Of a stretch of DNA of 50,353 nt, positions 44,286-50,353 are shown one piece after another. Position 1 is the stretch's first letter. Each line of letters begins with the position of its first letter. The DNA lies in assembly GCA_902792435.1 (NCBI GenBank), contig CADAZN010000023.1:1-50353 (forward strand), in the 5' to 3' direction. This DNA is from an uncultured Bacteroidales bacterium. Lineage in GTDB: Bacteria > Bacteroidota > Bacteroidia > Bacteroidales > Muribaculaceae. The notes beneath the pieces were generated by a model that was not told the DNA's origin, searched no databases, and saw only the letters and a program-made list of their open reading frames with translations. Made by a program: the position numbers and the translations under genes.

Positions 44286-44927
44286 ATGGAAACAAGGGTA
44301 GTTATATATGCTAGAGTCTCAACAAAGGGACAAGATTTTGAAAGGCAATTATTGGAACTTCACGAATACGCTAATAAGATGGGTTATGTTATAATCAAGG
44401 AATATACCGAAAAAATCAGTGGAGCAAAAAAGGTGGCGGAACGTCAAGCATTGTCTGAGTTATTAGACTTTGTGGATAGCAGTAAGGTGGACAAGGTGCT
44501 CATATATGAATGTTCACGTTTGTCAAGACGTGCCATTGACTTTTTGTCAGTGATAGAATATCTCAATGATAGACGGGTGTCGCTATACATTCTTCAAAAT
44601 GGATTAGAAACCCTCCTCGCAGATGGAACAATCAATCCAATAGCCCAGTTGGTGCTTGGTATTATAGGTCAGTTTAACACTATGGAACGTAGTCTGATAA
44701 GGGCAAGGATGGAGTCTGGCTATCGTACCTATCGGCTCAATGGAGGACAAGTAGGACGTAAGGTTGGATATCGCAAGACAAACGAGGCAATGCGAGACCA
44801 GTATGCCCAAGAAATAAAACTGCTAAAGAAAGGGCTGAGCATGCGACAGGTCAGAGCCATTACACATACGAGTATGAATACGCTACAGAAATTGAAAAAG
44901 ATATTCATTGACAACAACGCTGCATAA
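44286..44927 (+). CDS. Serine recombinase (resolvase/invertase family)
   Basis: A 213-aa protein. The catalytic domain begins with VVIYARVSTKGQDFERQ (Arg10 and nucleophile Ser12), then LIYECSRLSRRAIDFL with the conserved RLSR, and LGIIGQFNTMERSLIRARMESG as the long E helix. A helix-turn-helix at the C-terminus (GLSMRQVRAITHTSMNTLQKL) binds DNA. The size is that of small resolvases/invertases rather than large integrases. It may resolve element dimers or invert DNA; no inverted repeats flanking the gene were seen. A terminator follows immediately. Confidence 0.92.
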   Translation: METRVVIYARVSTKGQDFERQLLELHEYANKMGYVIIKEYTEKISGAKKVAERQALSELLDFVDSSKVDKVLIYECSRLSRRAIDFLSVIEYLNDRRVSLYILQNGLETLLADGTINPIAQLVLGIIGQFNTMERSLIRARMESGYRTYRLNGGQVGRKVGYRKTNEAMRDQYAQEIKLLKKGLSMRQVRAITHTSMNTLQKLKKIFIDNNAA

Positions 44928-45123: not shown

Positions 45124-46635
45124 ATGGCAAAAAAGCAAAGTACAACTGAACTGGGATTTGAAGCGCAGATGTGGAAGGCGGCCGATGTGTTGCGTGGCAA
45201 CATTGATGCCAGCGAGTACAAGAATGTGGTGCTGGGGCTCATCTTCCTCAAATATATCAGCGACCGCTTCGAAGAGAAATACACAGAACTGCTTGACGAA
45301 GGCGACGGCTTTGAAGAGGACAAAGATGAATACACTGCCGACAACATATTTTTCGTGCCACGTGAGGCACGATGGAGCCGCATTGCTGGCGATGCTCACA
45401 ACCCCACCATTGGCGTTACCATCGACGATGCCATGCGTCTCATCGAGCAGGAGAACCCACGTCTCAAGGGTGTGCTCCCCAAGAATTTCGCCCGCCCCGA
45501 ACTCGACAAGCGCCGTCTGGGCGATGTGGTTGACTTGTTCACGAACAGCATCAGCCTCTCCAGTGGCGACGACAGCCGTGACTTGCTGGGCCGCACCTAT
45601 GAGTATTGCTTGCGTATGTTTGCGGAGAAGGAGGGAAAGAACGCTGGTGAGTTCTACACACCAGGTTGTATTGTACGTACCATTGTCGAGGTGCTCCAGC
45701 CCTACAAAGGCCGTGTCTATGACCCCGCTTGCGGTAGTGGCGGCATGTTTGTGCAGAGTGCCAAGTTCATCAAGCGTCATCAAGGCAACCTCCAAAAAAT
45801 CAGCATCTACGGTCAGGATGCCAATGCCACCACCCGCAAGATGGCAATTATGAACCTCGCCATCCGTGGCATTGAGGCCAACCTGGGCGACCACGCTGCC
45901 GACACGTTCTTTGATGACCAGCACCCCACCCTCAAGGCAGACTACGTAATGGCAAATCCACCATTTAACCTCAGTGACTGGGGAGCCGAGAAGTTGCAGG
46001 AAGACGTGCGCTGGCGATATGGCATACCACCGGCTGGCAACGCCAACTTCGCCTGGCTCCAGCATATGATACATCACTTGTCACCAGTGGGCAAAATAGG
46101 TATGGTGCTCGCCAACGGTGCGTTGAGCAGTCAGAGTGGTGGCGAGGGCACCATTCGTGAGAACATCCTCAAGGCCGACCTTGTGGAAGGCATCGTGGCA
46201 CTGCCCAGCCAGTTGTTCTACACCACTGGCATCCCCGTGAGTCTGTGGTTCCTTAACCGTGACAAGAAACAGAAAGGCAAGGTGCTGTTCATTGACGCAC
46301 GCAACATGGGCGAGATGGTGAACCGTCGCTTGCGTGAACTCACCGAGGCTGACATCATAAAGATTGCCAACACCTTCAGCAAATTTGACGAGGGCACTCT
46401 CGAAGACGAGAAAGGCTACTGCGCCGTCAAAACCCTCGATGAGGTAGCAAAGCAGGACTACATACTCACCCCAGGTCGCTATGTGGGCATTGCCGAGCAA
46501 GAAGACGATGGCGAACCCTTTGCCGAGAAAATGTTACGACTCACCACCGAGTTAGGCGACCTCTTCACCGAGAGTCACCGCCTTGAAGAAGAAATACGCA
46601 AACAACTCGCCTCTATCGGCTATAATATCAAATGA
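45124..46635 (+). CDS. hsdM: Type I restriction-modification system, DNA methyltransferase subunit (HsdM)
   Basis: A 503-aa N6-adenine methyltransferase that works with HsdS to methylate, and with HsdR to cut, DNA. An N-terminal helical HsdM domain (MWKAADVLRGNIDASEYKNVVLGLIFLKYISD) precedes the catalytic core: GEFYTPGCIVRTIVEVL, motif I DPACGSGGMF near residue 200, and motif IV NPPFNLSDW near 278. The length is typical. The stop overlaps the hsdS start by 4 nt. The gene is clearly more GC-rich than its neighbours hsdS and the DUF262 gene, suggesting a mosaic origin of the operon. Confidence 0.97.
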   Translation: MAKKQSTTELGFEAQMWKAADVLRGNIDASEYKNVVLGLIFLKYISDRFEEKYTELLDEGDGFEEDKDEYTADNIFFVPREARWSRIAGDAHNPTIGVTIDDAMRLIEQENPRLKGVLPKNFARPELDKRRLGDVVDLFTNSISLSSGDDSRDLLGRTYEYCLRMFAEKEGKNAGEFYTPGCIVRTIVEVLQPYKGRVYDPACGSGGMFVQSAKFIKRHQGNLQKISIYGQDANATTRKMAIMNLAIRGIEANLGDHAADTFFDDQHPTLKADYVMANPPFNLSDWGAEKLQEDVRWRYGIPPAGNANFAWLQHMIHHLSPVGKIGMVLANGALSSQSGGEGTIRENILKADLVEGIVALPSQLFYTTGIPVSLWFLNRDKKQKGKVLFIDARNMGEMVNRRLRELTEADIIKIANTFSKFDEGTLEDEKGYCAVKTLDEVAKQDYILTPGRYVGIAEQEDDGEPFAEKMLRLTTELGDLFTESHRLEEEIRKQLASIGYNIK

Positions 46636-47765
46636 CCATGAGCGAGTGGAAAGAATATAAACTGGGTGATATTGCCATAATGAAAAATGGGAAGAAACGT
46701 CCAAATAACAAGGGAATCTATCCCGTTTATGGTGGTAATGGAATTATGGATTATTGTAATGATTATAATTCTGAAGCCACTATTATTGTTGGACGAGTAG
46801 GGGCATATTGCGGCTGCGTTTATTTATGTAAAAGTAAATGTTGGGTCACCGATAATGCCATATCAGTATCAGCCAAAGATTCCGTTGATTTAGAATATCT
46901 TTTTTATGCGATGAAAACACTTGATTTTCATCGTATGAGAATTGGTGGAGCACAACCACTGATGACACAAGATATTATAGGAGGTTTTGATATTCGGTTG
47001 CCAAATATTCCTGAACAACGTGAAATTGTTTCCATTATCAAATCTCTTGATGATAAAATCGAGAACAATCGAAAGATAAACGAGAATTTGGAGCAGCAGG
47101 CACAAGCCTTATTCAAAAGTTGGTTTATCGACTTCGAGCCCTTCAAAGACGGCAAGTTCATTGATTCAGAATTAGGCCCCATTCCCCAAGGTTGGCGAGT
47201 AGGAACTTTGGATGAAATATGTTGTTTCATATCTCGCGGTATCTCACCAAAATATGATGAAACAACAGAAGAATTTGTTTTAGGTCAAACATGTGTAAGG
47301 AATAACATTGTTACTTTAAATAACGCTAGGAAGCATAGGCCAAAGGTCAAAAATGAAAAATGGACGAAGCAATGGGATGTTCTTATCAATTCTACTGGTG
47401 TTGGCTCTTTAGGACGTGTAGGCATCGTGTATTTTGATAAAGCCAATGTGGCATTTGATTCTCACCTTACTGTTGTTAGAACCAAAGATGATATAACAAG
47501 ACTCTATGTAGGTCGCAACCTTCTAAATAGACAATTAGAGATAGAGAATATGGCAGTAGGCAGCACAGGTCAAACAGAACTTCCCAGAGACAGTGTCAAG
47601 TCAATGCCTATAATAATTCCCACTCATTTTGTCATTAAGAAATTCAATGAACTTATTAAACCGATGGCATTGCAGATGTATCATCTCATAAATGAGAATA
47701 TCAGTTTGTCTCAAACGCGTGACACTGTGTTGCCTAAGTTAATGAGTGGTGAAATTAAAGTTTGA
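46632..47765 (+). CDS. hsdS: Type I restriction-modification system, specificity subunit (HsdS)
   Basis: A 377-aa protein with two target-recognition domains. TRD1 (about 1-115) starts WKEYKLGDIAIMKNGK. The central conserved helix (LPNIPEQREIVSIIKSLDDKIENNRKINENLEQQAQALFKSWFIDFEPF) runs from about 125 to 175. TRD2 starts PIPQGWRVGTLDEICCFISRG, and the C-terminal helix ends DTVLPKLMSGEIKV. Each TRD would recognise one half of a bipartite target. AT-rich compared with hsdM, as is usual for recombining specificity genes. The DUF262 gene follows after 21 nt, where hsdR would often be. Confidence 0.95.
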   Translation: MTMSEWKEYKLGDIAIMKNGKKRPNNKGIYPVYGGNGIMDYCNDYNSEATIIVGRVGAYCGCVYLCKSKCWVTDNAISVSAKDSVDLEYLFYAMKTLDFHRMRIGGAQPLMTQDIIGGFDIRLPNIPEQREIVSIIKSLDDKIENNRKINENLEQQAQALFKSWFIDFEPFKDGKFIDSELGPIPQGWRVGTLDEICCFISRGISPKYDETTEEFVLGQTCVRNNIVTLNNARKHRPKVKNEKWTKQWDVLINSTGVGSLGRVGIVYFDKANVAFDSHLTVVRTKDDITRLYVGRNLLNRQLEIENMAVGSTGQTELPRDSVKSMPIIIPTHFVIKKFNELIKPMALQMYHLINENISLSQTRDTVLPKLMSGEIKV

Positions 47766-47786: not shown

Positions 47787-49871
47787 ATGGATATAGATAA
47801 AGGTAGTATATATAAGTTGTTAAACGGACAGTCACAATATGTGATTCCTGTCTATCAGCGCAAGTACAGTTGGCTTGCTGAAGTACAATGTGCCAGATTG
47901 TGGAAAGACATCGTGAATATGGTAAAGCAGAAGAAGCAGCACCATTTCGTAGGCTCCATTGTTAACGTTGCCGAGAAGAATTCCCCAATGGGATTGAACA
48001 AATATCTTATCATTGATGGACAGCAACGTATGACAACTCTGTCACTGTTAATGATTGCATTACGGGACCACTTGATTGCTAGTGGCGATGATACGGATGC
48101 TGACACTAGTATCACGGATATGATATTGAAGAATCCAAATCGCAAAGGCGATGATGCATATAAGATGATGCTAACTGACACCGATAGGGATATAATGGTC
48201 AGATTGATAGACAAGTTGCCAGTTAACGACAACGAGGAATCTAAGATATATCAGAATTACCTTTATTTTCGTCAGAAGGTGGCCGAGGAGGTATTAACCC
48301 CACAAGAGATTTACGAATCTATAGCAAAACTGGATATTGTCAGTATAACACTTGACAAGAGCCAGGGGGATGAACCACAGTTGATTTTTGAAAGTCTCAA
48401 CTCTACTGGCATGGATTTGTCTAAATCGGATTTAATACGAAATTTCATCTTGATGGGACTGGACAACGATGAACAGATATCACTATATAAGAGTTACTGG
48501 AAACCTCTTGAGGATTTCTTCCCACCGGAGGAGCGCTCAGACAAGATGGACAGATTCTTCCGAGACTATCTTGTGATGAAGAAGTCAACCAAGGACATCA
48601 AGTTCGGACTGATTTATGAGGAAATAAAAGAATATGCTGCGAACTCAGAATTTGCCACATCTCAAGAACTAGCAGAAGACCTTTACAATTATGGTGACTT
48701 ATATACCAATATTATTAATGGTAACAAGAAACTTCCAATCGTTGAGACTTCGCTGAAACCTGTCTTTGACGAGATGAGGGGACTCAGGATGGAACTGACA
48801 TATCCATTTTTAATGCGTGTTTATATGGATGTAAGGAAGGGGCTTCTTTCGGTAGACGAGTTTATCGAGATACTGAGAATGGCAATTTCCTATGTTGTGA
48901 GGCGTTCTGTTTGTGAGATTCCAGCAAACTCATTCAACAAGACATTCGCCACGATGGGCAATGACATCAAGCCTGATGACTATCTAAATTCAGTCAAAGC
49001 GGCATTCTTATTACTTGACTCATATAAACGTTTCCCCAGAAATGACGAGTTTATCGCTGCATTGAAAGAGAGGAATATGTATAAGATACGCATTAGTAAG
49101 TATGTTTATGTTCAATTGGAAAACTTTGGTAACAAAGAGCCAATTACGTCCACTGGATATACGATTGAGCACATTCTCCCACAAAATGAGGATATGCGTG
49201 AGGAATGGAAGACTGCGTTAGGAGATGATTATAAGGAAGTGCAAGCGAGATACCTCAACAGCCTGGGTAATCTAACGCTGACAGGATGGAATTCCGAAAT
49301 GGGAGACAAACCGTTTGAGGAAAAAATAGAGGTATACAAGGAAAGTGCAATGCACAACCTCAACAAGTACGTGGTTCAGCAGAGTACTTGGAATAAGGAC
49401 ACAATTGAGGAACGCACCCGTCAACTTGCTGAATGTGCATGCAAAGTGTGGGGTATGCCAACACTGAGTGAGGACGTTTTCAATGCATATAAACCTAAAG
49501 AAGAACAACCTAAGCAGCAGTTTGATATCACCCACTACAATTTTGACAATGCGTTTGTTAAGATGCTTTATGACAAATTGGATGCTGCCATCATGGAGGT
49601 CGCACCGACCTGCAAGGTCGAATACAAAAAATTATACATCGCCTATAAACTAAAAACAAATTTCGTAGATGTTGTGGTTCAGAAGTCGAGGTTGAGACTT
49701 ACTGTTAACCTTGCTTTTGATGAAGCATATGACCCACATGGAATATGCAAGGATGTAACCGATTTAGGGCGATGGGGCAATGGAGACGTGGAAATCGGAT
49801 TCGATTCGTTGGACATGCTGGATAAGATTATGGAAATCATTGAACAAGCAATTGAGAAACAAGGCGTTTAA
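47787..49871 (+). CDS. DUF262-DUF1524-DUF5655 protein (GmrSD-like type IV restriction family)
   Basis: A 694-aa protein. The N-terminal DUF262 (GmrS-like) has IPVYQRKYSW at residues 20-29 and IDGQQRMTTL near 75-84, the ParB/Srx-like nucleotide-binding signatures. The C-terminal DUF1524 (GmrD-like HNH nuclease) has TIEHILPQNED near 458 and LGNLTLTGWNSEMGDKPF near 491-508. Residues about 585-690 match DUF5655 (KVEYKKLYIAYKLKTNFVDVVVQKSRLRLTVNL). The family includes GmrSD, which cuts phage DNA with modified cytosines. The last base of its stop is shared with the ATG of a PIN-like gene. It lies between hsdS and an hsdR not seen in the window, so it is either cargo of the type I locus or part of it. 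Confidence 0.9.
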   Translation: MDIDKGSIYKLLNGQSQYVIPVYQRKYSWLAEVQCARLWKDIVNMVKQKKQHHFVGSIVNVAEKNSPMGLNKYLIIDGQQRMTTLSLLMIALRDHLIASGDDTDADTSITDMILKNPNRKGDDAYKMMLTDTDRDIMVRLIDKLPVNDNEESKIYQNYLYFRQKVAEEVLTPQEIYESIAKLDIVSITLDKSQGDEPQLIFESLNSTGMDLSKSDLIRNFILMGLDNDEQISLYKSYWKPLEDFFPPEERSDKMDRFFRDYLVMKKSTKDIKFGLIYEEIKEYAANSEFATSQELAEDLYNYGDLYTNIINGNKKLPIVETSLKPVFDEMRGLRMELTYPFLMRVYMDVRKGLLSVDEFIEILRMAISYVVRRSVCEIPANSFNKTFATMGNDIKPDDYLNSVKAAFLLLDSYKRFPRNDEFIAALKERNMYKIRISKYVYVQLENFGNKEPITSTGYTIEHILPQNEDMREEWKTALGDDYKEVQARYLNSLGNLTLTGWNSEMGDKPFEEKIEVYKESAMHNLNKYVVQQSTWNKDTIEERTRQLAECACKVWGMPTLSEDVFNAYKPKEEQPKQQFDITHYNFDNAFVKMLYDKLDAAIMEVAPTCKVEYKKLYIAYKLKTNFVDVVVQKSRLRLTVNLAFDEAYDPHGICKDVTDLGRWGNGDVEIGFDSLDMLDKIMEIIEQAIEKQGV

Positions 49872-50353
49872 TGCAAAGAATCTATCTGGACACAAACATT
49901 ATCACTCGTCTGAAGGATGATGATATATTGCTAGACTTTCTTAACAAGTACGGCAGATTCTTCATCTTTCCATATTCACCCGCTCATTTTGATGACTTAA
50001 CACATGGTAGTTTGGATGAAGATGCAGAAATGCATCTCCAACAAGATATTAAAACAATGGATTTGCTATGTGGAGACAATCTAGTCGATTTCGATAAAGA
50101 AAAAGATATGCTGATACCTTATAAATGTCTTCCAAGTGAATATGTGAAAAATAATCGCAGATACCATACTGACTACAATACTATATGTAATGCTTTTGTT
50201 GGAAATCAAGAGTCCAACGAAACGATATTCAATAACATCCCAAGGCTATTTGATGTGACTGAAGGAGAATCACCATTGGTTGATTTGTCAATGGAAATGT
50301 TAAAAGACGCTTTAGGACTTTTTTCCAAACAAATATCTGGATTATTAAATTCA
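49871..50353 (+). CDS. PIN-like domain protein, partial (runs off the window)
   Basis: 161 codons are visible, with no stop before the window edge. The start MQRIYLDTNIITRLKDDDIL matches the first strand of PIN-like nucleases, where the Asp of DTN binds the metal. FPYSPAHFDDL follows near residues 38-48, with further acidic residues. The ATG overlaps the stop of the DUF262 gene (TAATG), so the two are almost certainly co-translated. PIN-domain RNases act in toxin-antitoxin and abortive-infection systems. No gene homologous to an antitoxin is visible. The assignment rests on the N-terminal motif only. Confidence 0.6.
   Translation, partial: MQRIYLDTNIITRLKDDDILLDFLNKYGRFFIFPYSPAHFDDLTHGSLDEDAEMHLQQDIKTMDLLCGDNLVDFDKEKDMLIPYKCLPSEYVKNNRRYHTDYNTICNAFVGNQESNETIFNNIPRLFDVTEGESPLVDLSMEMLKDALGLFSKQISGLLNS

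Follow-up and report, generated by a model that had tools for sequence, protein, structure and literature searches.

The window analysed here, a stretch of 50,353 nucleotides from an uncultured Bacteroidales bacterium of the family Muribaculaceae, ends within a type I restriction-modification (RM) operon of the order hsdM-hsdS-[gmrSD]-[pin]-hsdR, in which a gmrSD-like gene and a gene for a PIN-like protein occupy the R-linked slot that separates hsdS from hsdR. We consider it probable that these are two independent accessory defence genes, with the GmrSD-like protein directed against modified DNA and the PIN-like protein, the product of a portable gene, acting as an RNase back-up. This reading builds on the structure of the operon, the separability of its two cargo genes, the conservation of PIN-type acids in the product of the second, and the recurrent occurrence of its relatives in a defence context.

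The genome of the window (G000) is distributed over 56 contigs, and the window is the entire contig C23, which ends at position 50353 inside pin. On the forward strand it carries hsdM, encoding the type I methyltransferase subunit (45124..46635; Pfam N6_Mtase 1.3e-109, HsdM_N 1.3e-28), hsdS, encoding the specificity subunit (46632..47765; Methylase_S 6e-29; 47% amino-acid identity over 333 aligned codons to hsdS of G135, a genome of the same genus used as comparison), the gmrSD-like gene in the RloF position (47787..49871, 694 aa) and the 5' part of the PIN-like gene (49871..50353, 161 aa), which is cut by the contig end while its open reading frame (ORF) is still open. The pin fragment is matched at 6e-37 by a family hidden Markov model (HMM) that contains the G135 homologue and not the window's own piece. 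hsdM and hsdS overlap by 4 nt, gmrSD starts 21 nt downstream of hsdS, and the gmrSD stop codon TAA (49869-49871) shares a single A with the pin ATG (49871-49873); the 1-nt junction reported in the sequence-only reading is therefore real, as an overlap and not as the fusion described there.

The genome contains the terminal 99 bp of the window twice, once at the end of C23 and once at the end of contig C28. On C28, pin is continued by DAKHCYYATCCDVLVTNDFK, its frame remains open for 319 aa up to a stop codon (about 33 of these residues fall within the 99-bp overlap), and hsdR starts 15 nt past that stop. Because C28 holds the 3' part of pin together with hsdR, we read the locus as a type I RM operon whose hsdS and hsdR enclose two cargo genes; the RloF-type R-linked slot is occupied, with hsdS in the window and hsdR reached through the overlap. 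G135 possesses an intact hsdM-hsdS-pin-hsdR operon, collinear with the C23-C28 arrangement and devoid of gmrSD. The link between C23 and C28, two sequences that we kept unjoined, is judged sound from this overlap. The placement inside a type I RM locus proposed earlier thus stands, with hsdM and hsdS upstream and hsdR on C28, and the completion of pin beyond the window that had been called for is supplied by C28.

The absence of gmrSD from the G135 operon bears directly on the relation between the two cargo genes. There, pin follows hsdS after 21 nt, the sequence from the hsdS stop being TGAATATAATTAACAAGGCGTTTAATG. This leader includes the 16 nt AACAAGGCGTTTAATG, which in the window (49858..49873, forward strand) form the GmrSD C-terminus with its stop and the pin start, and which in G135 stand directly after hsdS. 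Since a genome without gmrSD has the identical 16-nt leader, the 1-nt overlap is no sign of co-evolution. Neither tblastn nor HMM revealed a PIN-like gene at any of the 18 fetched GmrSD loci, and 2 of 24 PIN-like loci (a set that includes the window and was drawn from overlapping samples) had a DUF262 neighbour. These two are the window and G993, where 172 bp separate the PIN-like gene from a DUF262 gene downstream of it, inside a repeat-bounded gene array; the protein of this DUF262 gene gave no DUF1524 match. The two-component unit with a DUF262 sensor that had been put forward for this locus was rejected on the basis of the G135 operon and the 0/18 count, homologues of the two genes being seldom adjacent. 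These observations suggest that the GmrSD and PIN-like genes are separate cargo and not a matched pair. A type II toxin-antitoxin pair of the VapBC kind was also rejected, as no small VapB-type partner gene adjoins pin; an antitoxin gene would have no room, because pin borders gmrSD (1-nt overlap) or hsdS (21 nt) on one side and hsdR (15 nt) on the other.

Divergence between G000 and G135 points in the same direction. Synonymous substitutions per synonymous site (dS) amount to 0.31 in hsdM and to 0.43 and 0.36 in the two parts of hsdR, compared with 0.03 and 0.06 in the two parts of pin, and the tract of low divergence comprises the leader, pin and the first ~120 bp of hsdR. The low dS of pin against the high values of hsdM and hsdR argues that the pin module was exchanged between lineages without gmrSD. 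In the 3' part of pin the nonsynonymous rate (dN) is 0.016 and dS is 0.063. As a separate observation, the N-terminal part of pin in the window (49871-50353) is fast-changing, unlike the 3' part, on few substitutions.

The sequence libraries offer little for the PIN-like protein. Its intact G135 copy of 452 aa gave no convincing match in Pfam, NCBIfam or PADLOC, and a search of PDB sequences turned up no PIN chain. Pfam and PADLOC were scanned with 11 members and NCBIfam with two proteins; among the 11 members, 10 Pfam families scored no better than E 0.00022, each of them limited to a single member and none of them PIN, and PADLOC had zero matches. An HSP90 match in the PDB (E 0.0045) was set aside, as it falls on the variable insert of the PIN-like protein. 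With the window's 5' part as query, PIN-like genes were found in 2 of 297 genomes of the family; further samples gave 4/101 genomes of the genus, 8/395 of the phylum, 10/249 of the family of G801 and 6/393 of the order. Two of the last six were discarded: a candidate in G345 (E 4.7e-4) has in-frame stops, and one in G588 (E 7e-4) overlaps a 381-aa ORF on the opposite strand. G343 was retained despite an E of 9.1e-4 because its 152-aa piece aligns across the N-terminal motifs. Among plasmids, the G312 protein as query gave one weak match, in Alteromonas, and the window part and the G135 and G989 proteins none; phages gave no match with the G312 protein, the only query used there, and viral contigs yielded no relative when queried with one PIN alignment and with four proteins singly, three of them PIN and one GmrSD. 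The single scan of genome contigs gave G135's own record and no other.

Nineteen members were aligned, omitting the window's pieces, the incomplete G343 and G439 proteins and the near-duplicates G1100 and G1170. All 19 (residues numbered as in L020) share Y5, D7, H41, D253, H256, C263 and D270 and have D or E at position 44, so that the four PIN acids D7, D/E44, D253 and D270 occur in order in every aligned member. The PIN-type active-site residues attributed earlier to the second gene are thereby confirmed, and the two G000 pin pieces combined hold all four. The family further carries the signatures S-x-x-H-x-x-[DE] and D-x-x-H-x6-C, whose H41, H256 and C263 we take to exceed the usual PIN signature. 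In a profile comparison with 23 proteins from a PF01850 search, the acids fall in PIN register and collinearly (P 0.0016 for the N half, P 0.0006 for the C half), the best E among 30 column shuffles per half being 0.17 and 0.25, respectively. VapC proteins (PF01850) share the four acids in the same order, and the profile match to them, although weak, is collinear; the PIN-like proteins differ from VapC in their length of ~450 aa with a large insert and a C-terminal region, in the additional invariant H41, H256 and C263, in the lack of an adjoining antitoxin gene and in having no Pfam match. A PIN fold for the second gene product is supported by these motifs, not proven.

Genes of several defence types accompany the family. 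Type I hsd genes lie beside the PIN-like gene in the window, in G135 and in G439, where pin is convergent with hsdR and the PIN copy lacks its N-terminus. Type IIG-like neighbours are present in G312 (11 nt apart) and G343 (4-nt overlap, with a truncated PIN copy), and ATPase neighbours in G825 (AAA_13, 2 nt apart), G1101 (AAA_15) and G1200, whose ATPase shares 53% identity with a protein annotated as TrlF-family. In G993, G1100 and G1170 a near-identical PIN unit of 1.58-1.60 kb (98.9-99.7%) is set in unrelated flanks. In a tree of the family, defence-linked and stand-alone members are intermixed and the deep forks are weak; the intermixing points to repeated recruitment. When 28 defence reference proteins were compared with the flanks at a distance of up to 1.5 kb, 8 of 23 PIN-like loci (window excluded) had a match, against 0 of 33 control loci from the PF01850 search (Fisher p 0.0003); dropping the loci that matched only self-derived references left 5/23 against 0/33 (Fisher p 0.009).

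Several results weigh against the proposed reading. The controls of this comparison come largely from genomes other than those of the PIN-like loci, and some control flanks end at contig ends; 15 of the 24 PIN-like loci have no match to the 28 defence references inside 1.5 kb. Profile-profile probabilities are low, 15.9% and 29.1% for the halves and 10.3% and 15.1% for the whole alignment, and a single-sequence AlphaFold2 model of the PIN-like protein is uninformative (mean predicted local distance difference test score 33.5), so that the PIN assignment rests on motifs and register. Finally, purifying selection is not clear in the 5' part of pin, where dN is 0.040 and dS 0.032, with a dN/dS of 1.23 from few changes.

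Some features of the wider PIN-like loci were noted alongside. The array at L036:1-19001, like L058 and L059, contains a repeat-bounded PIN-like unit of ~1.6 kb that is ~99% identical across genera, and hairpin-forming repeats of 110-150 nt stand ahead of several genes in these arrays; the repeats of the L036 array presumably resemble an integron attC array. L017:13007-13924 encodes a protein with a C-terminal DUF5655 and an N-terminus that looks nuclease-like by eye, and is closely followed by genes for a type IIG-like enzyme and a truncated PIN-like protein. A common series of genes, identified by eye as NadA, glutathione peroxidase, PhzF and an EamA-type permease, flanks both the G135 hsd-pin operon and, in G1329, a short PIN-like gene accompanied by an ATPase (L083:7981-13750 and L007:1047-13005); these common border genes make a shared defence hotspot possible.

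The first cargo gene fits a known type. Its 694-aa product exceeds the Pfam cut-offs for GmrSD_N (DUF262; 3e-35; aa 8-221, 47808..48449), GmrSD_C (DUF1524, the His-Me finger nuclease domain; 2.4e-24; aa 416-549, 49032..49433) and DUF5655 (6.2e-14; aa 587-690, 49545..49856), all on the forward strand, which upholds the description of a single-chain GmrSD-like protein with DUF5655 placed directly, 21 nt, after hsdS. The DUF262 part has the QR (24), DGQQR (77) and FxxxN (FESLN, 201) motifs of the GmrSD family, and the H, N and N of the DUF1524 His-Me finger are found in EHILPQ (461) and LGNLTLTGWN (LGN, 493). The DUF262-DUF1524-DUF5655 layout recurs in 4/4 full-length homologues scanned (three plasmids and one phage record), and DUF5655 in none of seven homologues from the same bacterial family (matches at E <= 1e-60 among the 297 family genomes, the window's own excluded). 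The best PADLOC match is 'Orf5' (1.9e-159). Eleven of 106 matching plasmid and phage records were fetched, mostly from the top of the list, and 10 were annotated; in 4 of these 10 (E. coli, Picosynechococcus, Sulfitobacter, Ruegeria) type I RM genes lie at most ~4.1 kb away. The E. coli copy has in-frame stop codons, and Ruegeria shows the order hsdM-hsdS-hypothetical-GmrSD-helicase, with a helicase-type gene in the position of hsdR.

Beside these loci, we noted a nucleotidyltransferase/DUF86 pair between hsdM and hsdS in the Picosynechococcus type I hsd operon (L118:1-6621), with one more small gene between its hsdS and hsdR, and, upstream of hsdM in the window (44286-44927), a gene for a small serine recombinase with a Resolvase domain; Sulfitobacter likewise has a recombinase gene, which separates its RM genes from the GmrSD homologue.

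The GmrSD gene is thus ordinary, and the RloF slot is already published. According to Machnicka et al. 2015 (PMC4619093), type I RM is the most frequent defence neighbour of GmrSD homologues, and RloF, a single-chain GmrS-GmrD protein with DUF262 and the same motifs, is located between HsdS and HsdR. Relative to RloF as presented there (PMC4619093), the window protein additionally carries DUF5655, which is also present in other homologues, and is followed by the PIN-like gene. Relatives of GmrSD recognise differing marks, SspE for instance phosphorothioate (PMC11411939). TgvAB of Vibrio cholerae VPI-2, a functional GmrSD-type pair, likewise places two extra genes, one of them DUF262-DUF1524, in a type I RM cluster; TgvA contributes a second DUF262 protein there, and the system depends on both genes (PMC11411939), whereas the PIN-like protein has no Pfam DUF262 match and occurs without gmrSD.

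In the reading that we favour, the GmrSD-like protein would, judging from its family, be a type IV-like, nucleoside triphosphate-dependent nuclease that cuts modified phage DNA escaping or blocking the HsdR layer. The PIN-like protein would be a metal-dependent nuclease, most likely an RNase with a presumed RNA target and trigger, and may shut translation down, serving as back-up, dormancy or suicide layer. Its gene would be portable cargo, accompanied by type I hsd, type IIG-like or ATPase genes or standing alone, and its product would probably not be an obligate partner of GmrSD. The RNase effector role suggested for it earlier is plausible. A survey of BREX systems counts PIN endoRNases among the less common back-up effectors, which fits the kind of effector proposed here, and the PIN endoRNases of BREX and OLD-ABC modules are alike in proposed role, with a restriction-like system or an ABC ATPase as neighbour (both from PMC12839542).

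The gene for PrrC, a protein of the HEPN class, lies in a type I hsd operon, and pin, as in PrrC/EcoprrI, is a candidate RNase gene within such an operon. Because pin sits in the hsdS-hsdR slot, which it occupies in two genomes, silencing by the Hsd complex is attractive: the HsdMSR complex would keep the PIN-like protein inactive and a phage anti-restriction protein would free it. For PrrC itself, the linked type I enzyme does the silencing and an anti-restriction factor of the phage brings about activation (PMC2610378), and the nucleotidyltransferase/DUF86 pair of Picosynechococcus is another likely RNase module in an hsd operon. We nevertheless hold this coupling to be possible at best, since most PIN-like members have no adjoining RM gene and hence require other control, and since PrrC combines an ABC-type ATPase with an anticodon nuclease (PMC2610378), whereas the PIN-like protein gave no ATPase match. 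From the many members without an RM neighbour, an autonomous trigger can be argued, for which the large insert and the C-terminal region are possible seats.

Other accounts fare less well. On C28, a 47-bp deletion relative to G135 splits hsdR (L006:7571-10644) over two frames, so that type I restriction may be off in G000, or the split may be an assembly error. Together with the dN/dS of the 5' part of pin, this would fit a decaying locus whose restriction layer is broken and whose cargo is kept or drifting; yet the pin pieces and gmrSD are open frames and dN/dS is ~0.05 in hsdM and in both hsdR parts, which renders decay improbable. We find it just as hard to believe that the PIN-like protein is a DNA nuclease assisting restriction: several of its neighbours are DNA-targeting enzymes, but the weak similarity found points to VapC-type PIN proteins, of which the known ones are RNases, and scans against the whole of Pfam brought no match (no comparison with FEN-type profiles was made). 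A dedicated system in which a DUF262 sensor gates a PIN toxin is very improbable, as the translational coupling suggested by the 1-nt overlap, the DUF262 neighbour in G993 and the precedent of TgvAB, in which two proteins form a GmrSD system within a type I RM locus (PMC11411939), are opposed by the matching G135 operon with its unchanged leader, by the counts of 0/18 and 2/24, and by the array setting of the G993 neighbour.

Among the matches listed in a search of titles and abstract starts of open-licence literature, none describes this PIN-like family in a type I RM locus; R-linked cargo architecture is known, and the nuclease family appears undescribed. The attractive two-gene story is thereby dismantled, and the sharper lead is a nuclease-like family without a convincing library match, which recurs beside restriction systems in the phylum of the window and moves as its own module. 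In a bolder form, which we advance tentatively and consider unlikely, these proteins (Y-x-D-x-N, S-x-x-H-x-x-[DE], D-x-x-H-x6-C-x6-D) would constitute a portable abortive-infection RNase family that is inserted in type I and type IIG-like restriction loci and in ATPase modules and also moves by itself as an integron-like cassette, and its members in hsd operons, gated by the restriction complex, would be a PIN-fold counterpart of PrrC. If the PIN-like protein is indeed an RNase gated by restriction complexes, a second fold would serve the PrrC strategy.

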